In this document: positions 50,700 through 52,603 of the stretch, in pieces
How the letters are laid out: each line of letters begins with the position of its first letter
How positions within the stretch are numbered: position 1 is the stretch's first letter
Assembly (NCBI RefSeq): GCF_018861145.1
Contig: NZ_JAHKQT010000017.1
Coordinates: 280,557-344,556, forward strand
Reading direction: 5' to 3'
Length of the DNA: 64,000 nucleotides
Origin: Poseidonibacter lekithochrous
Lineage (GTDB): Bacteria > Campylobacterota > Campylobacteria > Campylobacterales > Arcobacteraceae
Program-made: the position numbers and the translations under genes
The notes under the pieces: generated by a model
Seen by the model: the letters and a program-made list of their open reading frames with translations, nothing else
What the model was told of the DNA's origin: nothing
Databases searched by the model: none

Positions 50700-52490
50700 T
50701 TAAATAGACTCTTTTTTATTTAATTCTTTTTTATATCTAACAGTTTTATTTCTTCCTGTCTTTTTAGCTTCGTATAGTGCAGTATCTGAATATTTTATAC
50801 ATTTTATTAAATCTTTATTATCTTGAGGAAATATTGAGGTTCCAATACTTATAGTTTTAGTAATTATTTCATCACCAGCTGGTATTTTTTGTTCTGAGAA
50901 TGAGATTCTTATCTTTTCAGAAATCTCTAATAAACTTTCTTCTTTACAATTATATAAAAGAACAAGAAATTCCTCTCCTCCAAATCTTACAATAATATCC
51001 GAGTTTCGAGTATTTTCTCTTAATGTACTAGCAATTCTTTTTATTGCAATATCTCCAACATCATGGCCATAAGTATCATTAACCATTTTAAAGTGGTCAA
51101 TATCTAACATTAAAACACCAAATGACAATGATGCTCTATTAGCTTGTTCTGTAATTTTAGGCATTTGATCTTCTAAATGTTTTCTATTATATAGTTTTGT
51201 AAGCGGATCAGTAATAGCATTTTCTTTTAATATTTGCATCAGTTTATAACTAATAATTACTGTTTTACTAGCTTCTACATAATCTTTTATAAAATTAATA
51301 TTTTCTCTTAATGCTGGAATTTCAGAACTATTGTCTGTATATATTGAGATGATTAAATCTAAATCGTTTGAAATAGAATAGGGAAGACAAAGATAGTTTG
51401 AATCTTTTTTTCTACACGAAGGACAAATATTTTGAAATTGGCTTGAATCTACAATTTCATTGGTTTTATCTGCTCTGCAAATTGTATTTTCTAAATCACA
51501 AAAGTCTTCTTTATTTATATATACATAATTAAGATTTCCATTTTTTGTATTTGCTTCTATAATATTTATATCTGTTACATTTAAATTTGATTTAATTATA
51601 TGTGCAAGTCTTATATATATATCTTCAAGTTTTTCATCATGTTCTATTGTTCTTCTAAATTTATATATTGCAGAAATTCTGTCAATAAGATTTTCTGCAT
51701 TAATTAATGGATCTTTTGTTTTTGTTTCTTCTGCAGATAAAAAGATAGAAATTTTAGAATCTATATTATCTAAAGCAGTTTGAAGTTTTTCTAGTAGTAT
51801 ATTTATCCATAAAGACACATCTTGAGCTTCTTTATTTTTTGAAGGTTCAATTCTTTTTGAATAATCGCCATCTTGTGCTTTACCCATAACTTTTTTAATA
51901 GAGTCAAATAATATTAAAAATGGAGAAATTAAATAATTGATTAAAAAACCTATAATAATAATTAAAATTAATGCAATAATCGTGGTATTAGATATAGTTG
52001 TAATTCCTGTTTGTTTTACATCATCAATTGGGAAAATAATAGAAATAGCTCCTAAAGTATCTCCTTCTTTTGCATTTGTATGACAGTTCATACAATTAAT
52101 TACACCAGTTGAAGTTGCTTTATATGGAATTGTAATTCTATAAGTACTATTTGAAAATAAAGATTCTTGTATATGTTTTTCTGCTATTCCTGTTTCTAAA
52201 ACTCTTTTATCAATATCATCTTTAATTGTTTGATTACTTAATCCATTACCGTATAGTTCAATAACTTTTTGTTGTCTATTTAACCATATTTTATTTATAT
52301 TTGGTAAATCTTCTAATTGTTTTAGAAATATTTCTCTTTTATTAATCACATCATTAAGCATTTGATTTGTGAGTGAATGTTCAATTGTTTTTGCAAGAAC
52401 TAGAGCTTTATTATCAATATTTTTAATTCCATAATCTCTAAAATTATAGGTAAAATTCAGAATCATTAAAATAAACATGATAAATATCAT
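50700..52490 (-). CDS. Diguanylate cyclase with periplasmic heme-c sensor
   Basis: Membrane-bound GGDEF protein predicted to make cyclic di-GMP. At least 596 aa: N-terminal membrane helix, periplasmic sensor with a heme c motif CMNCH (133-137), second helix (about 169-190), HAMP-like linker (about 191-245), a GAF-like region with five cysteines (331, 338, 356, 359, 368), and GGDEF domain with active-site GGEEF (504-508) and inhibitory I-site RNSD (495-498). The ATG at 52490 has no ribosome binding site and lies within the helix; the frame is open further upstream and an ATT at 52529 has AAAAAGGA 6 nt before it, adding KTNNK-type basic residues. Signal probably redox or a small gas ligand. Confidence 0.9.
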   Translation of the reverse strand: MIFIMFILMILNFTYNFRDYGIKNIDNKALVLAKTIEHSLTNQMLNDVINKREIFLKQLEDLPNINKIWLNRQQKVIELYGNGLSNQTIKDDIDKRVLETGIAEKHIQESLFSNSTYRITIPYKATSTGVINCMNCHTNAKEGDTLGAISIIFPIDDVKQTGITTISNTTIIALILIIIIGFLINYLISPFLILFDSIKKVMGKAQDGDYSKRIEPSKNKEAQDVSLWINILLEKLQTALDNIDSKISIFLSAEETKTKDPLINAENLIDRISAIYKFRRTIEHDEKLEDIYIRLAHIIKSNLNVTDINIIEANTKNGNLNYVYINKEDFCDLENTICRADKTNEIVDSSQFQNICPSCRKKDSNYLCLPYSISNDLDLIISIYTDNSSEIPALRENINFIKDYVEASKTVIISYKLMQILKENAITDPLTKLYNRKHLEDQMPKITEQANRASLSFGVLMLDIDHFKMVNDTYGHDVGDIAIKRIASTLRENTRNSDIIVRFGGEEFLVLLYNCKEESLLEISEKIRISFSEQKIPAGDEIITKTISIGTSIFPQDNKDLIKCIKYSDTALYEAKKTGRNKTVRYKKELNKKESI

Positions 52491-52603
52491 AAAAGTAACA
52501 ATAAAAATAATTTTATTATTTGTTTTAATAATGAGTCCTTTTTGCTTTAATAATAAAAGTATATCAAAAAATTTAATAATATATAAGGTTTTATATAGTG
52601 AAT

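Follow-up and report, generated by a model that had tools for sequence, protein, structure and literature searches.

A diguanylate cyclase of Campylobacterota with a putative periplasmic heme c sensor and a cysteine-bearing cytoplasmic GAF domain

The window analysed here is a stretch of 64,000 nucleotides from Poseidonibacter lekithochrous (contig NZ_JAHKQT010000017.1, positions 280,557 to 344,556), and its minus strand encodes a diguanylate cyclase whose layout is given in Table 1. Rieske/bc1 genes, a threonine synthase-like gene, an acetylglutamate kinase-like gene, the cyclase and a divergent helicase-like gene follow one another (names assigned by eye), in an order that is identical around the cyclase in the loci L001 and L002; PADLOC returned no match. 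Nothing besides the GGDEF domain was reported when the window protein was compared with Pfam. Transmembrane helices were recognized by eye on both sides of the periplasmic, CxxCH-bearing Cache domain, and the linker at residues ~186-236 looks HAMP-like by eye, with G208 present in 141/141 and N230 in 138/141 relatives; Pfam reports no HAMP domain for this linker. A previous sequence-only reading of this DNA had described a periplasmic CMNCH motif, a cytoplasmic cluster of five cysteines and a cyclase with intact active site and I-site. The latter two sites are indeed intact, the RxxD motif (R495-D498) lying five residues upstream of GGEEF.

Table 1. Features of the diguanylate cyclase gene (positions in the window)
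Feature	Position	Strand	Basis or remark
Whole diguanylate cyclase gene	50700..52529	-	609 aa from probable ATT start
Open reading frame from first ATG	50700-52490	-	596 aa
Met44 codon	52359..52361	-	aligned with Met60 of GSU0935; Met in 135/141 relatives
Periplasmic sCache_heme-type sensor domain	51981..52400 (approximate limits)	-	profile comparisons
CMNCH heme c attachment motif, residues 133-137	52080..52094	-	CxxCH in 137/141 relatives
Cytoplasmic GAF domain with cysteine site, residues ~284-420	51231..51641	-	Pfam match in relatives, and model
Cysteine loop C331-X6-C338-X17-C356-X2-C359-X8-C368	51387..51500	-	alignment of relatives
GGDEF domain	50745..51218	-	PF00990, E 8.5e-47
I-site RNSD (495-498) and active-site RFGGEEF (502-508)	50967..51008	-	sequence

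Because conservation of the frame extends further upstream than the first ATG at 52490, translation probably starts at the ATT codon at 52527-52529 (AUU in the mRNA), which is preceded by a Shine-Dalgarno-like AGGA at 52536-52539 of the minus strand. The aligned codon is ATT in the window gene (L003) and L002, ATA in L001 and L084, and ATC in L006 and L007, five of these six AUH-start orthologs belonging to the genus of the window and one to another genus; all have a Shine-Dalgarno-like AGG or GGAG a few bases upstream, and the other relatives printed in the comparison show ATG at the same place. In a tally of 139 sequences, leaving out L161 and L167, the scanned stretch contained ATG in 121, GTG or TTG in 13 and none of these in 5, among them L062, which is cut there; L006 and L007 enter the group of 13 solely because a TTG of theirs touches the Shine-Dalgarno-like GGAG. 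Apart from the six AUH orthologs and L062, all 132 others thus have a usual start codon (AUG, GUG or UUG). Differences in the 12 codons after the start site are mostly synonymous (window versus L007: 6 synonymous, 2 not), whereas those in the 12 codons before it are mostly nonsynonymous (window versus L002: 0 synonymous, 9 not), which argues that translation probably begins at the AUH codon. As a control for AUU starts in the same genome, infC offered TTG and ATG candidates with no evident AUU, and so gave no support. In L084, an out-of-frame ATG upstream of the AUA opens a very short frame that overlaps the start region.

Genome searches were centred on the phylum of the window. The sensor part is matched in 8/10 genomes of the genus, with an ortholog of 66-100% identity in five of them and a second type, 26-31% identical, in several; the genome of the window carries both types, the second copy being L013 (G000:C9). 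The family and phylum searches used a profile restricted to the cytoplasmic domain (A1, 9 rows), which matched 89/104 genomes of the window's family and 127/397 of the phylum Campylobacterota. Most of the matches listed lie in open frames of ~600-650 aa, which suggests a single architecture. One hundred fetched stretches (1 unusable) together with the earlier loci yielded 163 open reading frames with the domain, 148 of them non-identical and 141 full length after 7 cut-short frames had been dropped. These relatives were taken mostly from the better-scoring of the matches listed, and since the A1 profile also includes the cysteines, distant members without them could be missed. The window's GAF part found no match when searched in plasmids, and the cysteine GAF domain occurred in none of the open reading frames of 76 viral-contig loci.

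Alignment of the 141 relatives upheld the observation of a periplasmic heme motif and a cytoplasmic cysteine cluster ahead of a GGDEF domain. CxxCH is kept in 137, C338, C356 and C368 are each present in all 141, exactly 17 residues separate C338 from C356 in every member, and RxGGEEF is found in 140. Conservation of this extent exceeds what a chance occurrence of the motifs would give. The claim of five cysteines stands in part. Cysteine conservation in orthologs, named beforehand as the point on which it could be refuted, favours it for four of the five residues (C331, C338, C356 and C368, in 130-141 of 141, with C331 in 130), while C359 is not a family feature, as its column holds Cys in 37/141 and elsewhere most often F. 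The loop contains 4 cysteines in 35 members, 5 in 78, 6 in 21 and 7 in 7, and fewer in none. The four members without CxxCH fall into two pairs. L009 (CINCI) and L014 (CISCN), close relatives that belong to the second type of the genus, keep both the cysteine loop and the GGEEF domain intact; in L161 and L167 the same cysteine GAF-GGDEF part follows another N-terminal half, which lacks a heme motif and shows, by eye, a HAMP-like stretch. Heme loss amounts to two changes on the tree. Since the cysteine site outlives heme loss in one pair and N-terminal replacement in the other, evolution can separate the two modules. The sequences show the domain kinds, the predicted ligand residues, the intact active site and I-site, their conservation, and a long-term pairing of heme motif and cysteine loop in a large Campylobacterota family.

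A profile of the periplasmic domain (A3, 44 members) finds the structure 3b42, the heme c sensor of GSU0935, with E 9.8e-5 over 125 columns. Met44 of the family aligns with chain position 26 of 3b42 and, as C106 and H110 of that chain correspond to Cys140 and His144, position 26 is Met60. In GSU0935 and GSU0582 the heme is reported to be ligated by His144 and Met60; in GSU0935, Met60 is described as occupying the distal position of one heme in the dimer, CO and NO as replacing it in the reduced form, and a redox-linked switch has been proposed (PMC8396549). The family members with a residue other than Met at this column are L009 and L014, which have Asn and have lost the heme motif too; L054, L073 and L074, with Val or Ile and the heme motif retained; and L161, in which the domain is absent (the Met of L167 is an alignment accident). 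PF21563 matches 14/44 members (E up to 0.1, best 1.7e-6), L013 scoring 21.4 bits against a gathering cut-off of 27, and PF11845 is reached weakly (10/44 members, best E 0.012); for the heme domain of the window protein itself, neither these two nor any other Pfam family gave a match. An hhalign comparison reached 99.1% (E 2e-18) against heme Cache domains that occur, within the genus, in chemoreceptors and in an EAL protein. The 3b42, PF21563 and PF11845 matches and the hhalign result place the periplasmic part in the sCache_heme/Mcp40H-20 group, as a distant member that lies under the Pfam cut-offs. GSU0935-type ligation with a distal Met is indicated by alignment alone, and the earlier proposal of heme c attachment gains support from a profile match that extends to this ligand. 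A structure model of the heme domain reached a pLDDT of 42 and was set aside. The chemoreceptors and EAL protein of the genus with heme Cache domains are L018, L019 and L022, PF11845 lying just under its cut-off in L018 and L022; with such proteins in one genus, signals sensed by heme c may reach several outputs.

The cytoplasmic part of the window protein has no GAF Pfam match of its own, GAF_2 matches 2/45 family members (best 7.4e-6), no Pfam family specific to the cysteine GAF motif was matched, and a PDB sequence search with the GAF profiles returned no match. An AlphaFold2 model of residues 240-425, built on a three-row alignment, is of middling quality (mean pLDDT 63, core blocks up to 86, cysteine loop ~50), and compared with GAF and GAF-like chains it gave VIA Z values of 9.5-11.4; Foldseek by itself put mainly GAF and GAF-like chains at the top, yet none with E < 0.001. 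The GAF_2 matches and the model together identify the cytoplasmic part as a GAF fold. In the model, the cysteines fall in a long loop that leads from the second strand to the next long one, presumably near the place where GAF ligands bind. The 10/141 members that lack an upstream cysteine all have a middle one, and this exchange, which involves only two changes on the tree, suggests a ligand swap. It was rejected as a case of covariation: Fisher's p is 1.7e-4 uncorrected, and with two tree changes a sign test cannot reach significance.

Structural zinc is typically bound by four-cysteine sites with CxxC, a motif that some members contain. Were the cysteines to bind Zn(II), they would stabilize the GAF loop only and the heme would be the single real input, a reading that also accommodates the persistence of the site in L009 and L014, where the heme is lost, and in L161 and L167, where the N-terminal region is another one, as expected of a structural part. 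This reading is nevertheless judged less likely: in the model the site lies in a GAF loop close to the region in which such domains bind their ligands, and the nearest precedents, by analogy, hold Fe-S clusters. AirS carries a [2Fe-2S] cluster on Cys-X7-Cys-X-Cys-X17-Cys and is described as reacting with oxidants and a nitrosating agent (PMC4601167), and a [3Fe-4S] cluster has been suggested for the GAF domain of VnfA (PMC9542535). Conserved cysteines in a cytoplasmic sensor could also form a metal-free thiol/disulfide switch for oxidants or NO, and redox cysteines are listed among the inputs of c-di-GMP proteins (PMC8846402), but three invariant cysteines plus at least one further cysteine in 141/141 members, with an invariant X17, exceed the need of a disulfide pair and make this very improbable.

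On the periplasmic side, the heme might be an NO sensor in the narrow sense rather than a redox sensor, a role already proposed for sCache_heme domains fused to signalling outputs, which is compatible with any reading of the cysteines and is quite possible, though the odds lean against it. A signalling-type sCache_heme domain is reported to bind NO tightly and to form no stable O2 complex (PMC12889525, preprint), but that domain is thought to be water-ligated at the sixth position, whereas Met is conserved here, as in GSU0935. Cytochrome cd1-type genes in the window's own genome (G000:C2:47693-51918) suggest nitrite reduction to NO, so that NO may be made in the cell. At phylum scale, cd1 genes occur in 47/127 genomes with the GAF domain versus 30/270 without. 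Within the window's GTDB family (threshold E below 1e-40), however, they occur in 16/36 genomes with the domain versus 4/7 without, that is, with no association. The link to cd1 was therefore rejected, the phylum-wide excess following phylogeny and being absent within the family, and this lack of coupling also counts against a narrow NO sensor.

The reading preferred here, with a probability of roughly 0.55, is that of a diguanylate cyclase which is bound to the membrane, subject to feedback inhibition and equipped with two sensors that each bear a cofactor, a heme c outside and a metal-cysteine GAF domain inside. For the identity of the cofactors, the signals, the coupling to the cyclase, the sign of regulation and the product inhibition, we infer the following scheme. 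Briefly, the sCache_heme-type domain would bind a c-type heme covalently, ligated proximally by His137 and, when reduced, distally by Met44, and oxidation, NO or CO would free or displace Met44 from the heme. Inside, the GAF domain would bind a metal centre via C331, C338, C356 and C368, while C359 would add a fifth ligand or stand in for another, and an Fe-S cluster appears likelier for this centre than structural zinc. The signal would pass through the transmembrane helix and the GAF domain to the GGDEF dimer, and the cyclase would be inhibited by its product at the I-site. As both sensors are aligned with the helices that arrange the GGDEF dimer, heme state and cluster state would jointly determine the c-di-GMP output. 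A bolder and rather doubtful extension would make this a transmembrane c-di-GMP synthase family, widespread in one phylum, that integrates a Met-switched heme c with an Fe-S GAF domain and, in the clade of the window, has its synthesis further throttled by a conserved AUU, AUA or AUC start.

The protein combines known kinds of sensor in a conserved way, and the pairing of heme Cache and cysteine GAF domains is itself undescribed in the literature searched, most subscription papers lying outside its reach. The accessible text of a 2022 review of c-di-GMP inputs (PMC8846402) contains neither 'iron-sulfur' nor 'c-type heme'. Because many related bacteria retain the pairing, a single protein may serve to compare chemical conditions on the two sides of the membrane. 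If the cofactor sites do sit on both sides, the cyclase would directly link respiratory or nitrosative state through c-di-GMP to the biofilm and motility decisions of Campylobacterota, and the natural variants that keep the cysteines with a lost heme or another N-terminal region separate the two inputs without mutagenesis.

Among known systems, plasmid-borne GAF-GGDEF diguanylate cyclases are alignable over the GAF and GGDEF parts, with 25-39% identity among the matches listed and no record covering 80% of the query. As a putative analogue of the inner site, AirS, a sensor kinase of Staphylococcus aureus, shares a cytoplasmic cysteine cluster with Cys-X17-Cys but differs from the window protein in the other spacings and in its kinase output, and the VnfA and AnfA GAF domains likewise have conserved cysteines and a suggested Fe-S cluster but belong to transcription activators. 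The sCache_heme domains (DUF3365/Tll0287, PF11845) are likewise heme c Cache domains fused to a signalling output, and the preprint describing them mentions GGDEF fusions, while its accessible text uses 'GAF' nowhere and 'cysteine' once, for a heme ligand (PMC12889525). Closest on the periplasmic side are the chemoreceptor heme c domains of GSU0935 and GSU0582 (PF21563), which share with the window protein the CxxCH motif, a Met at the distal place and alignability over the domain; their output is that of a chemoreceptor, whereas the window protein, itself below Pfam detection, ends in a GGDEF domain.
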